Notes under the pieces: model-generated
The model's database searches: none
The model's input: only the letters and a program-made list of their open reading frames with translations
Told to the model about the DNA's origin: nothing
Source of the DNA: a virus
Length of the DNA: 29,976 bases
IMG/VR virus record: IMGVR_UViG_3300005537_000053
Location: 1 to 29,976 of that record
Reading direction: 5' to 3' (one strand)
Position numbers and translations under genes: made by a program
Shown here: in pieces, positions 22,302-29,852 of the stretch
How positions within the stretch are numbered: position 1 is the first letter of the stretch
Layout: each line of letters begins with the position of its first letter

Positions 22302-22513
22302 GCGCGTCTCCGCAAAGACTCGAGGTAGCGCTCCCGATCCTCACAAACCTCGCGCGCCTCCTCAGCACTCGGCTTCGTGCCAAGGTCAATCCCCGTCGTC
22401 GCACCCAGCTCGTACGCCACGAAGTCCTTGCTGTTCGCCTCCACCACGCTGTAGCGACGGCCACCAGCACCGACGCCGTATTGGACGGAGCCGTCAACGG
22501 GGAGCCATTTCAT
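22298..22513 (-). CDS. Hypothetical protein, 71 aa
   Basis: No family recognised. An N-terminal beta part (MKWLPVDGSVQYGVGAGGRRYSVVEA) is followed by a charged helix (AEEAREVCEDRERYLESLRRRA). The ATG overlaps the helicase-loader stop as ATGA and its own stop overlaps the next GTG. The gene keeps host-like codon use and is clearly translated with its neighbours; function not inferred. Confidence 0.6.
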   Translation of the reverse strand: MKWLPVDGSVQYGVGAGGRRYSVVEANSKDFVAYELGATTGIDLGTKPSAEEAREVCEDRERYLESLRRRA

Positions 22514-23064
22514 GGCTGACTATCTCCGACTTTGGCCAGTAGGCTGCGCGCGGATTGCGGCCCCTGAAGACTGCGAGTGCCTGAATATGCGATCTCTGGA
22601 ACGGCTTCCCTGATATCAACCGAATCTGACATCGACTCGAAATGCTCGGCAAACCGACGCTCGAGAAAGTGTGTTGATTCGCTGTTTGACATCGCGATTG
22701 CATTCCAACCTCCAACCGCATTCACAGCTCTTTGTACCAACGGATCAGCCAGAGGACCGCGCAGATATCGCGGATCGACCGGAAAGTTTGGCGAGTATGA
22801 CGTGCGGGCAAATTTCAACACCGCTGCCCACGCCTCGCCCGAAGTTGCACGACCTGCTTTGCGCAGGTCCTCGAAATCCTTCGGCATCGGCATGAATTCG
22901 CACGTGCGAATCAGATGCTCCGCGGCCTTGCGAAAATCATCCAGAGACCAGGCTTGCATGGAACGCCAATACAACTCCAGCGCCGGCGCCGAGAGTTGCT
23001 TTCCCTTCAGCTCCGCGAATCCGATGATGACTTCAAGGAAGTCCTTGCGATCCGCTGGTGTCAT
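22510..23064 (-). CDS. Replication protein P-like helicase loader, 184 aa
   Basis: The N-terminal ~65 residues (DFLEVIIGFAELKGKQLSAPALELYWRSMQAW then DDFRKAAEHLIRTCEFMPMPKDF) match the phage replication/P-like family (DUF6475-like) that loads DnaB-type helicase; the mid part (GEAWAAVLKFART ... DPLVQRAVNAVGGW) is the usual continuation. The C-terminal ~40 residues are Ser/Glu-rich. It follows the O-like initiator with an ATGA overlap, the arrangement of lambda O-P. No Walker motif, so loader and not helicase. Confidence 0.75.
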   Translation of the reverse strand: MTPADRKDFLEVIIGFAELKGKQLSAPALELYWRSMQAWSLDDFRKAAEHLIRTCEFMPMPKDFEDLRKAGRATSGEAWAAVLKFARTSYSPNFPVDPRYLRGPLADPLVQRAVNAVGGWNAIAMSNSESTHFLERRFAEHFESMSDSVDIREAVPEIAYSGTRSLQGPQSARSLLAKVGDSQP

Positions 23065-23885
23065 GCGGCACCCGTGCGGCGCATGAATTCCTCGGCGGCC
23101 GACAGATTGCCGCTAAGCCGCGTGTCGGCCTTGGTTGCCGGCAGCGTCCAGGGCTCGAGGAAATGCTTGTCAGGACCGACGAACTTCGCGGCCTGCATGG
23201 TGAACTCCGTGTTGAGTTTTCCAGTGGCCACGACGAACGCGGCATAGCGCTGGGCGCCTGCGATGATCTCCTCCCACGAATGCCCTTCCGCGATCCTGGC
23301 GCCAATCGCCCTGAAGGCGCGCGGCCAGGGCTGTGAGCCGGCTCTCGGAGGGTACGCCAACTTGAATCGCGAGAACTCGGGGTCGATTGCGTTACGTGCG
23401 GGCCGCGTCGCGGCCGTGGGTTTATTCTTCTCTGAGTCTTGTCTTAGTCTTGTCTTGTCTAGGTCTGGTAACGTTACGGCGTTACGTGACGTAACGGCTG
23501 AATGTTTGTGTTTGTCACGGAATCTTTGTTGGCGTAACGCGTTACCGGATCGTGCTTTGGCCGTGCTACCATTATGTGCATGATAGTTCGGAAGTTTTAC
23601 CCTGTCGCCGTCGAGGATCTGAAGCCAGTCGTCTGGCAGGATCTCGCAGAATCCGTCGATCCCGATGAGCTTGTCTATCTGGTGAGTGTTGAGGGCAAGA
23701 ATGTCGTCCTCACCGATGTGAGTGTCTGCAATCATCCAGAGCCGCGTTACGCCGCCAATGAGTAACGTTGTGGCCGGTAACGCCGTAACGTTACTGTTCG
23801 CATAACGCTCCTCCAGCTCCATCGCTGCGGCCACGAACCGAGGATCGGTCAACAGATCCTTCTCGACTTTGATCCAACCGCTCAA
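23061..23885 (-). CDS. O-like replication initiator containing the putative origin, 274 aa
   Basis: N-terminal winged-helix-like domain (SGWIKVEKDLLTDPRF ... TLLIGGVTRLWMIADTHIGEDDILALNTHQIDKLIG) as in phage O-type initiators; a polar linker from ~110 to 165 encoded by the repeat-rich DNA; C-terminal domain (FSRFKLAYPPRAGSQPWPRAF, SWEEIIAGAQRYAAFV) that should recruit the P-like loader. I chose a TTG start at 23885 because it overlaps the stop of the 41-aa gene as TTGA; a farther TTG at 23915 is possible. GTAACG inverted repeats lie inside the gene, as ori lies inside lambda O. Confidence 0.8.
   Translation of the reverse strand: MSGWIKVEKDLLTDPRFVAAAMELEERYANSNVTALPATTLLIGGVTRLWMIADTHIGEDDILALNTHQIDKLIGIDGFCEILPDDWLQILDGDRVKLPNYHAHNGSTAKARSGNALRQQRFRDKHKHSAVTSRNAVTLPDLDKTRLRQDSEKNKPTAATRPARNAIDPEFSRFKLAYPPRAGSQPWPRAFRAIGARIAEGHSWEEIIAGAQRYAAFVVATGKLNTEFTMQAAKFVGPDKHFLEPWTLPATKADTRLSGNLSAAEEFMRRTGAA
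23390..23545. repeat. GTAACG palindromic cluster, predicted origin iterons (main)
   Basis: Contains CGTTAC (23390-23395), the palindrome GTAACGTTAC (23468-23477), the 8+1+8 inverted repeat CGTTACGTGACGTAACG (23480-23496) and the palindrome GTAACGCGTTAC (23534-23545). They sit inside the linker-coding part of the O-like gene next to a purine-rich (minus-strand) tract, matching the iteron-plus-easily-melted layout of lambda ori. Confidence 0.6.
23435..23456. repeat. Tandem 11-bp direct repeat beside the iterons
   Basis: AGTCTTGTCTT occurs twice head to tail (23435-23445, 23446-23456), continuing GTCT. On the minus strand the surrounding 23422-23462 is nearly all purine. It sits 12 bp from the first GTAACGTTAC palindrome and could be the unwinding element of the origin. 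Confidence 0.5.
23745..23794. repeat. Second GTAACG repeat cluster in the initiator gene
   Basis: CGTTAC (23745-23750), GTAACG (23762-23767), GTAACG (23777-23782) and the palindrome GTAACGTTAC (23785-23794). Same motif as the main cluster, ~200 bp upstream in the gene. It may be an extra initiator-binding array or an autoregulatory site. Confidence 0.5.
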
Positions 23886-24330: not shown

Positions 24331-24420
24331 GGCTAGACCTCTAGGTGCGCCGCGGCACGCGTTATGCTGCGAGCAATGCGCGGTTGCGCACATACGGCAC
24401 AGCGAATGGTCAAAGGGGGG

Positions 24421-24448
24421 TTAAGCTCGGCGGTGATCAGCCGATAAC
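24421..24448 (+). promoter_or_regulatory. Candidate promoter for the lipoprotein
   Basis: TTAAGC (24421-24426), 16-nt spacer, GATAAC (24443-24448). Start of transcription would fall near 24455, leaving a ~20-nt leader with GGGAG. Matches are weak (3/6 and 4/6), so this is tentative. The rest of 24331-24473 shows no other clear signal. Confidence 0.3.
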
Positions 24449-24473
24449 TCGAACAACAGGGAGACCGCGATCT

Positions 24474-24689
24474 ATGAAAACCGCTATTTTCGCTATGTTG
24501 AGTGTGATGTTGGTCACGGGCTGCGTGAGTGAGAAGACCGCGCTCACCAACGCTGCAGGGCAACAAGTCCACTGCGACGCCTGGGGGTTCGGCCTGATCG
24601 GCGCCCCCGTCGCTATGGCATCGCACCATGACTGCATGGAGAAGGCCAAGGCGGCGGGGTATTCGGAGTTCCCCAAGGCTAGCCAGTAA
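24474..24689 (+). CDS. Small lipoprotein, likely lysogenic moron, 71 aa
   Basis: Signal peptide MKTAIFAMLSVMLVTG with lipobox VTGC, so it is lipidated at Cys17. The mature part is ~54 aa (CVSEKTALTNAAGQQVHCDAW; GLIGAPVAMASHHDCMEKAKAAGYSEF), with two further Cys that could pair. It resembles small outer-membrane lipoproteins of bacteria. It is transcribed against both flanking early genes, so it likely has its own promoter and could be expressed in the lysogen (Bor-like or exclusion protein; inference). GGGAG lies 10 nt before ATG. Ends 11 bp from the convergent gene's stop. Confidence 0.75.
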   Translation: MKTAIFAMLSVMLVTGCVSEKTALTNAAGQQVHCDAWGFGLIGAPVAMASHHDCMEKAKAAGYSEFPKASQ

Positions 24690-24976: not shown

Positions 24977-25177
24977 TCAACTCCCCTTCCGGGTCGTATA
25001 GTCGTCAGGGTTGAAAGTCAGCGCGCCACCGGTCAGCTTCTCGAGGCGGGCTGCGTGGAGGGGTGGCACCCGGTTTGTCTTTTTCCACTTGGACACGGCT
25101 GCTTTGCCGACACCCAGCGCCCGAGCAACCGCTGACTGATTACCGTTGAACCACCTTATGACTACTTCGGCTTGCAT
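24977..25177 (-). CDS. cro: Cro-like HTH regulator (YdaS/Cro type), 66 aa
   Basis: MQAEVVIRWFNGNQSAVARALGVGKAAVSKWKK contains a classical helix-turn-helix (about 12-33); then RVPPLHAARLEKLTGG, the common end of YdaS/Cro proteins (family: E. coli YdaS, DicC, lambdoid Cro). It should bind the operators upstream and favour lysis. ATG 25177 is selected over a 12-codon longer frame because the pR promoter and operator lie in the extra stretch. Transcript predicted leaderless. First gene of the pR operon. Confidence 0.85.
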   Translation of the reverse strand: MQAEVVIRWFNGNQSAVARALGVGKAAVSKWKKTNRVPPLHAARLEKLTGGALTFNPDDYTTRKGS

Positions 25178-25182
25178 CTTTG

Positions 25183-25203
25183 AAGAGTATCGTATCCGAT
25201 ACC
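25183..25203. promoter_or_regulatory. Operator OR1 (21-bp, perfect copy at OL1)
   Basis: Carries the dyad GTATCG-TATC-CGATAC (25187-25202). The whole 21 bp recurs exactly in reverse orientation at 25742-25762. It lies between -35 and start of cro, so repressor bound here should block pR. Confidence 0.75.
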
Positions 25204-25213
25204 GACAAGGCAA
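25186..25213 (-). promoter_or_regulatory. Promoter pR (cro operon)
   Basis: On the minus strand: -35 TTGCCT (25213-25208), 16-nt spacer, -10 GATACT (25191-25186). Eight bases later is the cro ATG, so the mRNA should be leaderless or nearly so. The operator covers the spacer and -10. Confidence 0.6.
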
Positions 25214-25227
25214 GCATACGCTACCTA

Positions 25228-25246
25228 CGGATACTTATAGTGTCCG
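25228..25246. promoter_or_regulatory. Operator OR2 overlapping the cI promoter (pRM)
   Basis: CGGATAC (25228-25234) and GTGTCCG (25240-25246) form arms matching at 6 of 7 bp. Between them is TATAGT (25236-25241), a good plus-strand -10, 6 nt before the cI ATG. No decent -35 is seen for it, as for activator-dependent pRM in lambdoids. Likely autoregulation of cI. Confidence 0.6.
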
Positions 25247-25247
25247 T

Positions 25248-25544
25248 ATGGAAACATTCGGAAGTCGTATCAGGACCGCGCGCAAACTCCGGGGCTGGAG
25301 TCAGGAAGAGTTGGGGCGGCGCGTAGCCACCCTACTGGCGCGAGCGACCCCGCTTGGCAAGGCCGCCGTTCAGAAGTGGGAGGCAGGGGACACTCGCCTG
25401 CCCGAGGCGGACGTAGTGTATGCGCTCTCCATTATTCTGGACATGCCCCATGATCTGCTTATCTGGGGCGAAGATCGTAAGCCGCCAGGGATGCGCCGGC
25501 ATCCCGCGACGCCGGAACGCAAACCACCGTTCTCGCGCGAATAG
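25248..25544 (+). CDS. CI-like XRE repressor without autocleavage domain, 98 aa
   Basis: HTH region FGSRIRTARKLRGWSQEELGRRVA ... PLGKAAVQKWEAGDTRLPEADVVYALSIILDMPHDLLIWGED is a full XRE-type DNA-binding domain (residues 3-75). The last ~23 residues are Pro/Arg-rich (RKPPGMRRHPATPERKPP) with no peptidase or dimerisation domain, so it cannot be a RecA-cleavable S24 repressor. ATG 25248 follows TATAGT by 6 nt, with no SD, hence leaderless. It sits opposite cro, bounded by operators. Induction route unknown. Confidence 0.8.
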   Translation: METFGSRIRTARKLRGWSQEELGRRVATLLARATPLGKAAVQKWEAGDTRLPEADVVYALSIILDMPHDLLIWGEDRKPPGMRRHPATPERKPPFSRE

Positions 25545-25654
25545 CCCTCGGTATAGCGGCCGGAAATCCACGAAGATAATCTTGCCGAGCGCTACGGCGC
25601 GTATCGATTTCATGTCCGCCTGACCCCCTTCCCAATTCTGGCGCCTGTAGCCGC

Positions 25655-25705
25655 CTAGAGACATTTGGCGCCCGCGCCATTCGTCTTGGCCGTGAAGTTC
25701 ATCAC
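25655..25705 (-). CDS. Possible 16-aa leader peptide antisense side of pL
   Basis: GTG 25703-25705 with a strong GGAGGTG 5-7 nt upstream; product (M)MNFTAKTNGAGAKCL, stop TAG 25655-25657. It overlaps the ATG (25664) of an uncertain 110-aa antisense frame. The strength of the SD suggests that something is translated leftward from the OL region toward cI. Otherwise 25545-25721 holds no gene I can support. Confidence 0.3.
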   Translation of the reverse strand: MMNFTAKTNGAGAKCL

Positions 25706-25721
25706 ATTTTCACCTCCAATG

Positions 25722-25762
25722 GTATCCGTTAGTTGACTCAAGGTATCGGATACGATACTCTT
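25722..25762 (+). promoter_or_regulatory. Operator OL and promoter pL
   Basis: Half-site GTATCCG (25722-25728); -35 TTGACT (25733-25738); 21-bp operator (25742-25762) with -10 GATACT (25754-25759), 15-nt spacer (or TACTCT with 17). The ATG of the first left gene is at 25768, 8 nt after GATACT, so the transcript should be leaderless. The operator is the exact inverse of OR1. Confidence 0.7.
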
Positions 25763-25767
25763 GGTCC

Positions 25768-25971
25768 ATGGCAACCAAGAAAACTGAACGGGACCTGAAG
25801 GAACGCCCAACCGAGGATGAACGGTTCTGGCAGGCCGTATACAACGCTGCCGTCTGGCCGATCCTCCTGGCCCACGACGGACAACAGCTCACCCCGATCT
25901 CTGCGGCACATCTGTGTGCTGACTTCGCGGACGCCTCTCTCATTGAGCTCCACCGGAGGTTCCCGAAATGA
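25768..25971 (+). CDS. First gene of the pL operon, hypothetical, 67 aa
   Basis: Charged N-terminus (MATKKTERDLKERPTEDERFW) and a helical rest (QAVYNAAVWPILLAHDGQQL; ISAAHLCADFADASLIELHRRF). No recognised domain. The ATG comes 5 nt after operator OL1 and no SD is present, consistent with a leaderless early mRNA. It sits where lambdoid phages carry an early regulator (N position), but no Arg-rich antitermination motif is seen. Its stop overlaps the next ATG (ATGA). Confidence 0.7.
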   Translation: MATKKTERDLKERPTEDERFWQAVYNAAVWPILLAHDGQQLTPISAAHLCADFADASLIELHRRFPK

Positions 25972-26066
25972 CCTGCTCCCCGATCGAGCTGGCCCTGCTC
26001 TGCATTGCTGCTGGGGCAGTCGGCAGCATCCTCACCATCGTCTCGCTCTACAGGCGGATCCCATGA
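25968..26066 (+). CDS. Small single-TM peptide, 32 aa
   Basis: M-T-C-S-P-IELALLCIAAGAVGSILTIVSLYRRIP: a hydrophobic helix (7-27) ending in YRR, i.e. a membrane peptide with cytoplasmic C-terminus. ATGA overlaps both the gene before and the gene after. Too short for length-based calling, but the coupling on both sides supports it. Possible lambda cIII/Ral-like or membrane-effector position; no homology seen. Confidence 0.6.
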   Translation: MTCSPIELALLCIAAGAVGSILTIVSLYRRIP

Positions 26067-26230
26067 GTGACGTGCTGCTGCATTACCAGATGCTGGCTGC
26101 CGCGCGAGGCGCCGAGATCAAGCAGCTCCGCGATGACCTCACCGCCGTGACGCTGGAGCGCGATGCCCTGCGCGAGGAGCTTCGACAGATCGAACACATC
26201 ATCGAATCAAACAACAAGGAGCCGACGTGA
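26063..26230 (+). CDS. Coiled-coil protein, 55 aa
   Basis: MSDVLLHYQMLAAARGAEIK then a clear heptad helix (QLRDDLTAVTLERDALREELRQIEHIIESN). ATG overlaps the upstream stop (ATGA), and TGA overlaps the downstream GTG (GTGA). Likely a small oligomeric accessory or inhibitor; no family recognised. Leftward-operon early gene. Confidence 0.65.
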   Translation: MSDVLLHYQMLAAARGAEIKQLRDDLTAVTLERDALREELRQIEHIIESNNKEPT

Positions 26231-26481
26231 ACGCCGTCCCCCAACAGATCCTGATCCGCGCGATCGAGCGCCCTGTGTTTGACAACGCGAGCCTCGGCAA
26301 CTTCGGCGCCTGGGCGAACGAGAACGCCAACGCCCTCGCCCGCTACTGGCGGGATCAGGGCGTCGCACTGGGCATCACCAAGGAGGATGACGAGGAGTTC
26401 ACCTTTTGGCTTCGGGTCCAACATGACATTGAGGTCAGTGCCCAGCGTCGCGCACGGCTGCCTCATGGAGCCTCGCTGTGA
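26227..26481 (+). CDS. Hypothetical early protein, 84 aa
   Basis: GTG start (GTGA overlap). Sequence NAVPQQILIRAIERPVFDNASLGNFGAWANENANALARYWRDQG then acidic KEDDEEFTFWLRVQHDIEVSAQRRARLP. Mixed alpha/beta composition, no motif recognised. Ends LPHGASL. It lies before the annealing protein in the pL operon; it may be an inhibitor of host nuclease or a regulator by position only. Confidence 0.65.
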   Translation: MNAVPQQILIRAIERPVFDNASLGNFGAWANENANALARYWRDQGVALGITKEDDEEFTFWLRVQHDIEVSAQRRARLPHGASL

Positions 26482-26558
26482 AGATCGCTCAATTCAAAAC
26501 AGACCCTGGAAGTTACTGGAGTTATAACAGTTTCCTGCCCGCCGGCCCCTTGCAATAG
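26478..26558 (+). CDS. Possible 26-aa peptide before the annealing gene
   Basis: GTG overlapping the previous stop as GTGA; product KIAQFKTDPGSYWSYNSFLP-type, ending in AGPLQ at TAG 26556-26558. Only the coupling supports it; polar, no motif. The 53 bases after it hold the GGAGG of the ERF gene. Confidence 0.35.
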   Translation: MKIAQFKTDPGSYWSYNSFLPAGPLQ

Positions 26559-26611
26559 GGTCCATGCGGAAATCCCGGCATTTTAGGGCCGGCGGGTGGG
26601 TTGGAGGAACG

Positions 26612-27595
26612 ATGAGCAGTGTGATTGATTTGAGCAAGGTGAGCGACCACAAGGAGATCGCGCCAGCCACGGACTCCACTGCACTAGTGGCAGTCATCGA
26701 ACGTGCTGCCCGCGATCCCAACATCGACATCGACAAGATGGAGCGGCTGCTGGCGATGCAGGAGCGCATCTTCGCCCGCACTGCCGAAGCTGATTTTAAT
26801 GCAGCCATGTCGGCGTGTCAGGCAGAGATGCCAGTCATCAAGGCGACCTTCAAGAATGACCAGACCAACTCATACTATGCCGCGCTGGAAGAAGTCGATC
26901 GGATTGCGCGACCTATTTACACGCGACACGGATTCTCCTTGTCATTCGGAACGGCCGATTGCCCGATAGAGGGATGTTACCGGCAAACCTGCAAGGTCTC
27001 ACATCGCGGCGGCCACTCGGAAATGCGTCAAGCGGATCTGGCTACCGACATGGTGGGTCTGAAAGGGAATCCAAACAAAACGGCCATTCAGGGGTTCAGT
27101 TCCTCGATGACCTACGGGCAAAGGATCATCACACGCCTCGTGTTCAACATCGTCATCGGCGACGACAATGACGGCAATGGGCCTACCCTGAGCAAGGACC
27201 AGATCGCGACGATCGAGGCCAAGATGCGGGAGGCGGGCACGAACAAGGAGCAGTTCCTGGAGTTCTGGCGTGTCAAAAACCTGGAGATCATGCCGGCATT
27301 CAACTTCCCGGTGATCATGGACATGCTTGCCCGCAAGGCCGCTCGCGTCGATCCTCGGGGCGATCTATCCAATGTCGACACGACGCTGCGTGACAAGCGT
27401 GTCAGTGAGATCACCGACCTCCTCAATGAGTATGGCTCCGACGAGCAGCTCATGGCCGAGAAAATGCGCGAGTACCACGCCGAGTATCTGAATCCCTTCC
27501 CCGAGCTGTGGATGGCGATCAGCGACAAACTGGCGAAGGACGGCATTATCTCCAAGTCCGTCATGAAGAAGATCTTCGACGGACCCAAGCGATGA
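26612..27595 (+). CDS. erf: ERF-family single-strand annealing protein, 327 aa
   Basis: Recombinase that anneals complementary single strands. The core includes MERLLAMQERIFARTAEADFNAAMSACQAEMP, then KNDQTNSYYAALEEVDRIARPIYTRHGFSLSFG, and SSMTYGQRIITRLVFNIVIGDDNDGNG, the family's conserved order (x-A-Y-x-x-L-E-x-V and G-x-x-x-T-Y-x-x-R). It continues with a ~120-aa C-terminal region containing helices (SDEQLMAEKMREYHAEYLNPFPELW) of less certain role. ATG 26612 is chosen: GGAGG 4 nt upstream, rather than the ATG at 26564. There is no obvious partner exonuclease here. Confidence 0.85.
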   Translation: MSSVIDLSKVSDHKEIAPATDSTALVAVIERAARDPNIDIDKMERLLAMQERIFARTAEADFNAAMSACQAEMPVIKATFKNDQTNSYYAALEEVDRIARPIYTRHGFSLSFGTADCPIEGCYRQTCKVSHRGGHSEMRQADLATDMVGLKGNPNKTAIQGFSSSMTYGQRIITRLVFNIVIGDDNDGNGPTLSKDQIATIEAKMREAGTNKEQFLEFWRVKNLEIMPAFNFPVIMDMLARKAARVDPRGDLSNVDTTLRDKRVSEITDLLNEYGSDEQLMAEKMREYHAEYLNPFPELWMAISDKLAKDGIISKSVMKKIFDGPKR

Positions 27596-27768
27596 GCGAC
27601 TGGCAAATCATCGAGACCGCGCCGCGAGATGGCACGCCCGTCGATCTTTGGCATCGGGCCGGCGGTCGCATGACCGAGGTTTGGTGGGACGATGCGGACC
27701 ATTGTTGGTCCTGCGCGCTGCCCGATTCAGAGTTCACACATTGGATGCCGATCCCCATTCCGCCATGA
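27592..27768 (+). CDS. DUF551-type protein, 58 aa
   Basis: MSDWQIIETAPRDGTPVDLW ... WWDDADHCWSCALP ... THWMPIPIPP is the DUF551 pattern (W-x-x-I-x-x-A-P-x-D-G-T ... T-H-W-M-P-L-P). A common small protein in phage early operons with unknown function. ATG overlaps the upstream stop (ATGA) and it ends at the next ATGA. Confidence 0.8.
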   Translation: MSDWQIIETAPRDGTPVDLWHRAGGRMTEVWWDDADHCWSCALPDSEFTHWMPIPIPP

Positions 27769-28250
27769 ATTCGATCATCCTCAAGCGCGTGCCGCCCGGG
27801 GCGAAACAGCGATGCCTGGACATCGAGCGGGTAGTGCACGCGCTTGAGGGGCTCCCCGAGGGTAAGGCTTGGCGCGTGTCAATCGCGGAAGCCAAGAGCG
27901 AACGGTCCATCTCTCAGAACAACTACTACCATGGCGTGGTATTGGAGCGCATCTCGCAAGCCTGGGGTGTCGATCCAGAAGACGCCCACGAGTGGCTGTG
28001 CGGTGCCCGTTGGGGCTGGAGGGACAAGAAGGTCCCGAGGACGCCTCGCAATAAAGACGGTGTTGAATCCGTTCCGATCCGCACGACCACCACGGATGAG
28101 AACGGGGAGCGGTCGGTGCTCAAGACAATGGAGTTCGAGGAGTTCATCGAATTCGCGAAGCGCTTTGCCGCGCAGAAGCTGAACCTCTTCATTCCTGATC
28201 CGGACCCGAACTACCTCATGCATCGCGAGCGCGAGGAGAAAGCCGCATGA
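27765..28250 (+). CDS. NinB-like recombination protein, 161 aa
   Basis: Starts MNSIILKRVPPGAKQRCLDI; then SIAEAKSERSISQNNYYHGVVLERISQAWGVDPEDAHEWLC and the basic KKVPRTPRNKDG ... EFEEFIEFAKRFAAQKLNLFIPDPD. The QNNYYH segment and the C-terminal EEFIEFAKRFA...IPDPD pattern occur in NinB-type single-strand DNA-binding recombination proteins, but the assignment is moderate. It lies between DUF551 and an HNH nuclease, as in nin regions. ATGA coupled on both sides. Confidence 0.5.
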   Translation: MNSIILKRVPPGAKQRCLDIERVVHALEGLPEGKAWRVSIAEAKSERSISQNNYYHGVVLERISQAWGVDPEDAHEWLCGARWGWRDKKVPRTPRNKDGVESVPIRTTTTDENGERSVLKTMEFEEFIEFAKRFAAQKLNLFIPDPDPNYLMHREREEKAA

Positions 28251-28681
28251 TGAGCCGCAACTACGTCCGTGCGACTGCCGAGGAAGCGCGCCGCATCAAC
28301 CGGATGAAGGCGGAGATAGGCTGCATTTGCTGCCTGCTGCGCACGGGCGTGCCAAACTATCACGTCGAAGTGCACCACATTGTGCGAGGCAACAAGCGCC
28401 TCGGGCATCTATATACCCTTCCGCTCTGCCGCAGCCATCATCGGATTCGCGGAGTGGGCGGGATCTTCACATCGATCGCGGACGGCCGCAAAGCATTCAA
28501 CAAAATTCACGGCACCGAGTTAGATCTCTGGCTCAAGTGCCAACACATGCTGGAGTTACCGGATGATCTCCCAGCTACGAAAGTACTTCCTCGACGAATG
28601 GCACCTGCAGATCGCCAAGTGGTGGCTGAGACTGCGGTACAGCCCGAAGGCGCGGGACATTCTGGTGGAGAGATACTGTGA
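28247..28681 (+). CDS. HNH nuclease, Ref-like, 144 aa
   Basis: Pattern GCICCLLRTGVPNYHVEVHHIVRGNKRLGHLYTLPLCRSHHRIRGVGG ... RKAFNKIHGTELDLW resembles the P1 Ref / phage recombination-endonuclease group: C26, C28, C29, H43-H44, C61, H64-H65 as metal/active set, then the K-x-F-x-x-x-x-G-T-E tail. Residues beyond ~104 are not family-like and overlap a second ORF (28563-28709). ATG 28247 overlaps the stop of NinB-like; GAGGAG upstream. Role: recombination with ERF. Confidence 0.8.
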   Translation: MMSRNYVRATAEEARRINRMKAEIGCICCLLRTGVPNYHVEVHHIVRGNKRLGHLYTLPLCRSHHRIRGVGGIFTSIADGRKAFNKIHGTELDLWLKCQHMLELPDDLPATKVLPRRMAPADRQVVAETAVQPEGAGHSGGEIL

Positions 28682-28709
28682 GCACCCTCGACGTGCACCA
28701 AGCCGCTGA
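28563..28709 (+). CDS. Overlapping basic helical ORF, 48 aa
   Basis: ATG 28563 with GGAG 7 nt before it, TGA 28707-28709. Product MISQLRKYFLDEWHLQIAKW then WLRLRYSPKARDILVERYCE, amphipathic and basic, more protein-like than the same-position tail of the HNH frame. It overlaps the HNH gene by 119 nt and the excisionase by 32 nt in a third frame. Could be a genuine nested gene; no family recognised. Confidence 0.45.
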   Translation: MISQLRKYFLDEWHLQIAKWWLRLRYSPKARDILVERYCEHPRRAPSR

Positions 28710-29028
28710 GCGCGCGAAGTGCCATCCGGATACGATGCGCAAGCTCATGAAGGCGGGCGAAGCCCCCGGAACCAAGGTCGGGCGCGCCTGGGTGGTCCTG
28801 GAGACCGATTTCGATCAATGGCTGAGTGAACGATGCCGCTCTACAAACGCCCCGGGAGCCCTTTCTGGTGGGTCCGCATTGGCCGCCGAACTCGCCAGAG
28901 CACGGGAACAGCGGATAAAGCAAAGGCGCGAGAGTTCGAGGAAACCCTCAAAGACCGACTCTGGCGCCGGGACAAGCTCGGAGACCGTGGTGCCATTCCG
29001 TGGACCGAGGTCGCAGAGCGATGGCTGA
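28678..29028 (+). CDS. Excisionase / HTH protein (helix-turn-helix 17 type), 116 aa
   Basis: Residues 3-50 (LDVHQAAERAKCHPDTMRKLMKAGEAPGTKVGRAWVVLETDFDQWL) are a MerR/Xis-like winged HTH, typical of phage excisionases. The continuing part has CRSTN...GGSAL, a tail often seen in such phage HTH proteins, plus a basic C-terminus (QRIKQRRESSRKP). GTG start, in frame to 29028, so it overlaps the integrase gene (28833) by 196 nt. Its function should be to steer the integrase toward excision. Confidence 0.8.
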   Translation: MSTLDVHQAAERAKCHPDTMRKLMKAGEAPGTKVGRAWVVLETDFDQWLSERCRSTNAPGALSGGSALAAELARAREQRIKQRRESSRKPSKTDSGAGTSSETVVPFRGPRSQSDG

Positions 29029-29852
29029 CCGACTCCAAACGCGCGCGCAAGCGCGATCGGGAATTCCTGAAGTGGCTGGCGCCGCGGATCGGCACGCACG
29101 CCGTCAGCGCGGTGGCGGACCCGGATGCGCTCGAGGAGCTGCGCAAGGACGGACTGGCGGAAGGTTGGACTCATGCAACCGTCGACCGGCTCATGACCAC
29201 AGTGCGCTCCGTATTGCGCAAGGCATGGAAGTGGCGTTACCTGACTCAAGCACCGACCGTGCCGATGTATGGCGAGCAGGAGACCGAGCCGCGCTGGTTG
29301 ACGCACGCGGAGTTCGATGCGCTGGTGCGGGAGCTGCCTCCGCATCTGAAAGTGGCCGCGCGCTTCGCCGTACTCACACTCCTCCGGATGCGCTCGCAGA
29401 GTCGACTGACCTGGGATCGCGTGGACCTGCGCAACCGGATCGCCTGGATACCCGGAGCCCAGATGAAGGCCGGTCGCACACATGGCTTCCCGCTGTCGAC
29501 GGAGGCGGTGAAGGTGCTGCGCCTGGCCAAGACCCTCAATCCGACCGGCGAGCGTGTCTTCCAGTACGAGGGCCAGCCGGTCGACGACTTCAACACCGCG
29601 GCCTTCAGGAAGGCTATGGCGCGGGCTGGGATCAAGGGAGCGAACTGGCATACCCTGCGCCACACGGGCGCCTCCTGGGCCGTCCAGAACGGCGTGACGC
29701 TGCCCGAGCTCATGGTACTGGGGGGCTGGAAAAGCTATCGCATGGTCCTTCGGTACGCTCACCTTGCGCCCTCGAATGCGGCCTCGGCGGCCGAAAAGGT
29801 GGCACAAAGGGCGCACACCCCGAAACGGCGCACAACGCGAAAAGCCCTGTAA
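28833..29852 (+). CDS. int: Tyrosine recombinase integrase, 339 aa
   Basis: Integrates at the tRNA-Val attachment site. N-terminal beta motif (MPLYKRPGSPFWWVRIGRRTR), then an alpha-helical core-binding domain (~60-140) and a catalytic domain with R185 (LTLLRMRS), K212 (QMKAGRTHGF), H273-x2-R276 (NWHTLRH), W299 in the GGW position of the second His/Trp, and Y308 (RYAHL). All catalytic positions are intact, so it is likely active. The start codon lies inside the excisionase frame. attP lies just after its stop. Confidence 0.95.
   Translation: MPLYKRPGSPFWWVRIGRRTRQSTGTADKAKAREFEETLKDRLWRRDKLGDRGAIPWTEVAERWLTDSKRARKRDREFLKWLAPRIGTHAVSAVADPDALEELRKDGLAEGWTHATVDRLMTTVRSVLRKAWKWRYLTQAPTVPMYGEQETEPRWLTHAEFDALVRELPPHLKVAARFAVLTLLRMRSQSRLTWDRVDLRNRIAWIPGAQMKAGRTHGFPLSTEAVKVLRLAKTLNPTGERVFQYEGQPVDDFNTAAFRKAMARAGIKGANWHTLRHTGASWAVQNGVTLPELMVLGGWKSYRMVLRYAHLAPSNAASAAEKVAQRAHTPKRRTTRKAL

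Follow-up and report, generated by a model that had tools for sequence, protein, structure and literature searches.

The question raised by this locus is whether the dense cluster of GTAACG hexamers within the replication initiator gene of the window (the whole 29,976-bp stretch of viral DNA that was analysed) is an origin of replication. The cluster very probably forms an iteron-type theta origin that lies inside the gene of its own initiator and works in the manner of the lambda and SPP1 origins. The whole window contained 16 GTAACG or CGTTAC hexamers, whereas shuffled windows contained 5.5 on average and 12 at most. Exactly 12 of the 16 fell within the approximately 405 bp from 23390 to 23794, as counted in an earlier note on this DNA, and the remaining four were dispersed elsewhere. 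That note had put the chance expectation at about 0.2; the pro rata value is approximately 0.07. The candidate origin proposed there is well supported, because the density elsewhere in the window is not similar and because protein coding does not explain the pattern, and the surrounding gene matches replication families. GC skew was flat and provided no support for an origin.

The window also carries genes for a terminase, a portal protein, an ERF-type recombinase, NinB, an integrase, and Cro/repressor proteins, and the contig may be incomplete. A control and recombination region of a temperate phage extends from 24977 to 29852, in which a Cro/YdaS-like gene (minus strand) faces an HTH repressor, followed on the plus strand by ERF, NinB, RecA-dependent nuclease, and integrase genes. 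A small plus-strand ORF (24345-24689) separates the replication genes from the Cro/repressor region and, if started at 24474, would carry a lipoprotein-like signal (MKTAIFAMLSVMLVTGC).

The start of the initiator gene was chosen by alignment to relatives that begin with M/V/L-SGWIK; the start in the mechanical ORF list is 23915. In a profile search, the N-terminal part of the initiator (residues 12-170) matched phrog_2509 (replication initiation) with an E value of 2.9e-19, and the C-terminal part matched phrog_1701 and other DnaD/O-like replication families. AlphaFold models had a mean pLDDT of 82 for the full-length protein and 87.5 for the N-terminal domain, and neither model gave a significant Foldseek match in the PDB. 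Mapped onto these models, block A falls on the loop that follows the first main helix and on the beginning of the next one, and block B falls on the long basic helix (residues 107-131) and on a disordered linker. A solved relative of the next gene product was searched for and none was found; its position makes it a candidate helicase-loading partner. Feature coordinates are listed in Table 1.

Table 1. Features of the initiator gene and the putative origin (window coordinates)
Feature	Position	Strand	Description
Replication initiator gene	23061..23885	-	274 aa; TTG start at 23885
Block A	23745..23794	.	five GTAACG/CGTTAC sites: 23745, 23762, 23777, 23785, 23789; palindrome GTAACGTTAC at 23785-23794
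Codons of basic helix, aa 107-131	23493..23567	-	codon 119 (CAA, Gln) at 23529-23531
Block B, first part	23534..23545	.	palindromic pair GTAACGCGTTAC (12 bp)
Block B, second part	23468..23496	.	four sites in 29 bp; tract-side end is palindrome GTAACGTTAC
Candidate unwinding tract	23424..23467	-	about four 11-bp units AGAC(A/C)(A/T)AGAC(A/T)(A/C)
Outlying twelfth GTAACG	23390..23395	-	on the far side of the tract from block B
Next gene	22510..23064	-	184 aa; overlaps initiator stop; phrog_10105 (function unknown), sub-threshold DUF6475

The hexamers form the two groups described earlier, blocks A and B, plus one outlier. Block A codes for residues 31-47 and overlaps the modelled loop of residues 29-37. 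Block B consists of six sites (23468, 23472, 23480, 23491, 23534, and 23540); its first part lies within the G-N-A-L-R codons of the predicted DNA-reading basic helix, and its second part codes for what is modelled as a disordered linker. Sites are spaced 4-17 bp apart inside the blocks. The 10-bp palindrome in block A has a second copy at 23468-23477, and a 17-bp palindrome (CGTTACGTGACGTAACG) occupies 23480-23496. Palindromes of 10, 12, and 17 bp are thus present as claimed, but they are pairs of units, because the repeat unit in relatives is a single asymmetric hexamer or heptamer, often directly repeated at 11 bp. The window array is denser and less regular than those of the relatives and includes overlapping pairs at distances of 4 and 6 bp; similar overlapping pairs also occur in the nearest relative, L007, and in phi11. 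A consistent counterpart of the outlying site was looked for in the relatives and none was found; its role is uncertain and it could be a chance occurrence.

The minus strand immediately after the last block B site reads AGACCTAGACA, AGACAAGACTA, AGACAAGACTC, and AGAGAAGAATA, an 11-bp repeat, in agreement with the tandem purine-rich repeat previously reported beside the main group. This tract adjoins the last site directly and is T-poor (four T in 45 nt). In predicted duplex stability, 50-mers at the tract were among the easiest-melting 0.1% of the window, and the 40-mer immediately beyond the last site fell within the easiest-melting 5% of its locus in most relatives (weakest in L001 and L017). 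The tract therefore has the character of an unwinding element as judged by predicted duplex stability, and its A+T-richness is not constant. The last block B site leads directly into C(A/T)AGA in most loci, and repeats of AGACC, AGAC, or AGAGA come next, where the coding strand has hardly any T; a short gap separates site and tract in L003, L016, L020, L023, and L024. A near-perfect GC-rich inverted repeat (GGCCGCG-A-CGCGGCC) is located just past the window tract at 23401-23415. GC-rich inverted repeats were also found in some relatives, not consistently, and a hairpin after the tract was rejected as a general part of the origin.

Homologue scans of viral_contigs and genome_contigs yielded 17 distinct loci with long homologues, a count that leaves out duplicate contigs and two shortened ones (L012 and L026). 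A common layout was found in these 17 contigs and in ten named phages: block A lies early in the gene, at the location that it occupies in the window, and block B lies after the DNA-binding domain, where the location of its second part is conserved, and usually abuts a T-poor AGAC/AGAGA tract. The motif itself differs among the 17 loci (GTAACG, GTCACG, or GTAATG, and GTAACG/GTTACG in L023), whereas the two positions are the same. The named phages, with homologues that are approximately 25-30% identical, carry either GTAACG (CP2, Olaya, PAN70, CBW1004C, and ctnlZ23) or GCGGAC/GTCCGC (epsilon15, 66FD, SPN1S, BUCT711, and phiPSA1). Since the motif of each locus was picked from that same locus, the individual P values are optimistic and the shared positions are the stronger evidence. 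Site density was 3.4-14.5 per kb in the gene compared with 0-1.1 per kb in the flanks, and some relatives, including L001 and L011, had few sites (4-5). Across 23 loci, the commonest distance between neighboring sites was 11 or 12 bp, close to one turn of the helix. Conservation of the layout while its letters repeatedly change indicates that the DNA site itself is preserved, and not only the encoded protein. When this region of the window was used as a nucleotide query against the phage collection, nothing matched.

In one alignment (A3), the same N-terminal domain and origin were fused to several unrelated-looking C-terminal domains; the origin layout therefore travels with the N-terminal domain only. 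GJ44, which has the C-terminal domain alone in common and contains no sites, was rejected as a relative with this origin, as was Carin1, which lacks a GTAACG or GCGGAC array and has at most one TCCGCA block.

The initiator ends at 136 codons in L012 and at 132 codons in L026. Both loci contain four block B sites at approximately 11-bp steps and a CCAGACCTA tract, which together straddle and follow the stop codon, so that the first block B site overlaps the last codons and the other sites and the tract are non-coding for the initiator. Block A is missing in both and is therefore not universal. Perfect DnaA boxes (TTATCCACA) were observed in these two loci at +151 and +480 (L012) and at +151 and +471 (L026) from the gene start, as if replacing block A. 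Perfect boxes also occur near the putative origin, at approximately +443, in epsilon15, 66FD, and SPN1S. The window was searched for a perfect box and contained none, and DnaA boxes were rejected as a general part of this origin, as was a DnaA-dependent origin.

A total of 2.9 million viral contigs (viral_contigs) were scanned for the site-tract junction alone, without protein information. Junction CGTKACCAGAGAAGAGAAGA was found in at least 120 stretches, and a permuted control with the same tract and CGT changed to TGC gave no matches. Of 80 such stretches, 78 carried two or more GTAACG/GTCACG sites within the last 101 nt up to the junction, against a background rate of 0.15 per 95 nt. For 69 of the 80, the surrounding reading frame contained a W-[IVL]-K motif, located a median of 376 nt upstream; the junction occurred in all three phases. 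Junction CGTKACCAGACCNAGACC was found in 21 stretches, 16 with at least two sites and 14 in a W-[IVL]-K frame, and part of the remaining stretches may be chance matches. All initiator-type proteins recovered from the junction scan (83 of 83) matched the N-terminal domain profile. Sites, tract, and N-terminal domain are therefore tightly linked in many viral contigs.

The array might be a by-product of protein evolution, in which the hexamers arise incidentally from the codons of a loop and of a repetitive, disordered linker. A disordered linker is indeed the predicted product of block B and the tract, and the peptide words NVT, AVT, and LPDQ recur in relatives. However, every reading frame and either orientation is represented among the hexamers, and protein coding therefore fails to account for them; the encoded peptides are RNA, TLP, VT, AVT, ALR, GNA, TLL, ALP, NVT, and SNV. 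The 11-bp step places the next site in another frame, as in L005 (frames 2, 1, 0, and 2). In 20,000 synonymous-codon shuffles of the initiator gene, the mean was 2.18 hexamers and the maximum was 8, compared with the 12 observed. Codons used by the hexamers are scarce in the remaining window genes, where TTA accounts for 1% of Leu codons and GTA for 7% of Val codons, and third-codon-position conservation between the window and L007 was in the expected direction and weak (p 0.04). The sites located beyond the end of the shortened genes (L012 and L026) and the use of all three phases in the protein-blind set also argue against coding, which was ruled out as the sole explanation; a by-product of this kind has a negligible probability.

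An autoregulatory operator, bound by the initiator within its own gene so as to restrain transcription, with the origin located elsewhere, is unlikely. Binding in the early half of the gene could obstruct transcription, and one protein could serve both roles; an operator alone, however, leaves unexplained the easily melted tract beside the last site, the position of two blocks hundreds of bp 3' of the start codon, and the placement of block B and the tract at the gene end and beyond in L012 and L026. It is very unlikely that the sites serve a host or other phage protein (DnaA-like, a nucleoid protein, or a partition or recombination factor) instead of the initiator. The perfect DnaA boxes close by in L012, L026, epsilon15, 66FD, and SPN1S favor such a protein and indicate that other factors act in the region of some relatives. 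On the other hand, the window is devoid of a DnaA box, the junction occurs with this initiator domain, and motif type, for which the initiator tree shows a minimum of 11 changes, correlates with residues of the initiator's own basic helix.

For an intragenic origin, by analogy with lambda and SPP1 (PMC7466680, PMC5043065, PMC6316719), the initiator would probably act first at block B, assisted by block A, before the tract opens and the helicase is loaded. The N-terminal domain of the initiator, probably via its basic helix, would bind the GTAACG sites of block B, cooperatively if the lambda and SPP1 precedent applies. Block A sites may be bound by wrapping or looping and may assist the block B complex. 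The initiator-DNA complex would then strain and open the adjoining AGAC tract, and the C-terminal domain with a partner, perhaps the next gene product, would bring in the replicative helicase. The roles of block A and of the next gene are the least certain parts of this mechanism. One stretch of DNA would serve simultaneously as protein code, binding array, and melting element.

Origins within initiator genes are already well known from lambda, P22, Stx phages, and SPP1; one has been inferred within ORF20 of 80alpha (PMC5499656) and another proposed in the initiator gene of phage KIRK (PMC7924643). In lambda, the origin sits within gene O, where the stretch that separates the N-terminal from the C-terminal domain holds the iterons and then an unwinding region (PMC7466680). 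The window resembles lambda (as well as Stx phages, and P22 gene 18 as annotated) in having repeated sites and an unwinding region in the initiator gene, and the lambda iterons at gene nt 349-433 correspond to block B at approximately nt 340-417. Lambda has a single block, made up of four inverted-repeat iterons of 18-19 bp spaced approximately 20-24 bp apart (PMC5043065), whereas the window has two blocks of hexamers at shorter spacing, mostly 11-12 bp in relatives; the lambda tract is A+T-rich, whereas the window-type tract is T-poor and not always A+T-rich. A lambda ori proper was rejected on this geometry, and no N-terminal sequence match to lambda O was seen. Two separate blocks and one-turn spacing are thus valid contrasts with lambda; a palindromic motif, also claimed as unlike lambda, is not, because the lambda iterons are themselves inverted repeats (PMC5043065). 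SPP1 carries oriL in its replisome-organiser gene 38 (PMC6316719), a likeness drawn from the published description. Epsilon15-type initiators (Uetakevirus, and also phiPSA1) have a homologous N-terminal domain, the same two blocks, and a tract; they differ from the window in the motif (GCGGAC/GTCCGC) and the tract (AGAGA), and the epsilon15 C-terminal domain is DnaT-like. A description of this origin type was not found in the literature searched. In iteron plasmid origins and in B. subtilis oriC with its DnaA-trios, ordered double-stranded sites run into a strand-biased repeat at which opening begins. The window shares this order, whereas its sites are intragenic and are not DnaA boxes. TP901-1 rep and 80alpha gp20 are of other kinds and lack the window motif. 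Neither the arrangement of hexamers in two blocks beside a T-poor AGA tract nor its spread or motif switching was described in the literature searched, the main review lying outside it. GTAACG/GTCACG repeats that run into CCAGACC or CCAGAGAA provide a DNA signature for placing likely origins in uncharacterised phage genomes.

Among 87 distinct initiators, residue 119 was the best correlate of motif type: GTAACG was associated with V (52) and Q (11), and GTCACG with Q (14) and K (10). This residue of the basic helix may help to read the motif. A recognition code is offered as a hypothesis, because the independent-pair test of residue 119 against the motif has only three well-supported pairs. 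Phi11 orf15 carries the same GTAACGTTAC sites and an AGA-rich tract in the same place as the window, with weak sequence similarity to the window initiator in the basic helix region, and its relatives mostly have one block, whereas the window has two. Membership of the window protein in PF09681 (Phage_rep_org_N) was rejected, as it had no Pfam match even at E 10, compared with 1e-52 for phi11 orf15. Staphylococcal phages with PF09681 initiators have the same GTAACGTTAC sites and AGA tract. DNA identity between their GTAACG and GTCACG versions is 90-100% through approximately codon 100; divergence sets in at the basic helix and continues beyond it, with Q replaced by K at the position aligned to 119; a simple recombination boundary would give an identical pattern. 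Tentatively, the sites, the tract, and the codons of the site-reading helix could form one self-contained cassette of a widespread origin class, in which recognition would have switched many times among GTA, GTC, and other motifs, partly through residue 119 (V/Q with GTAACG, Q/K with GTCACG), with the staphylococcal Q-to-K change as a parallel. Such natural motif switches make initiator-origin recognition and its evolution directly testable. In the staphylococcal loci L080 and L112, the initiators are near-identical for approximately 100 codons and then differ in basic helix, iterons (GTCACG in place of GTAACG), tract, and C-terminal domain, an apparent cassette exchange as judged from sequence.
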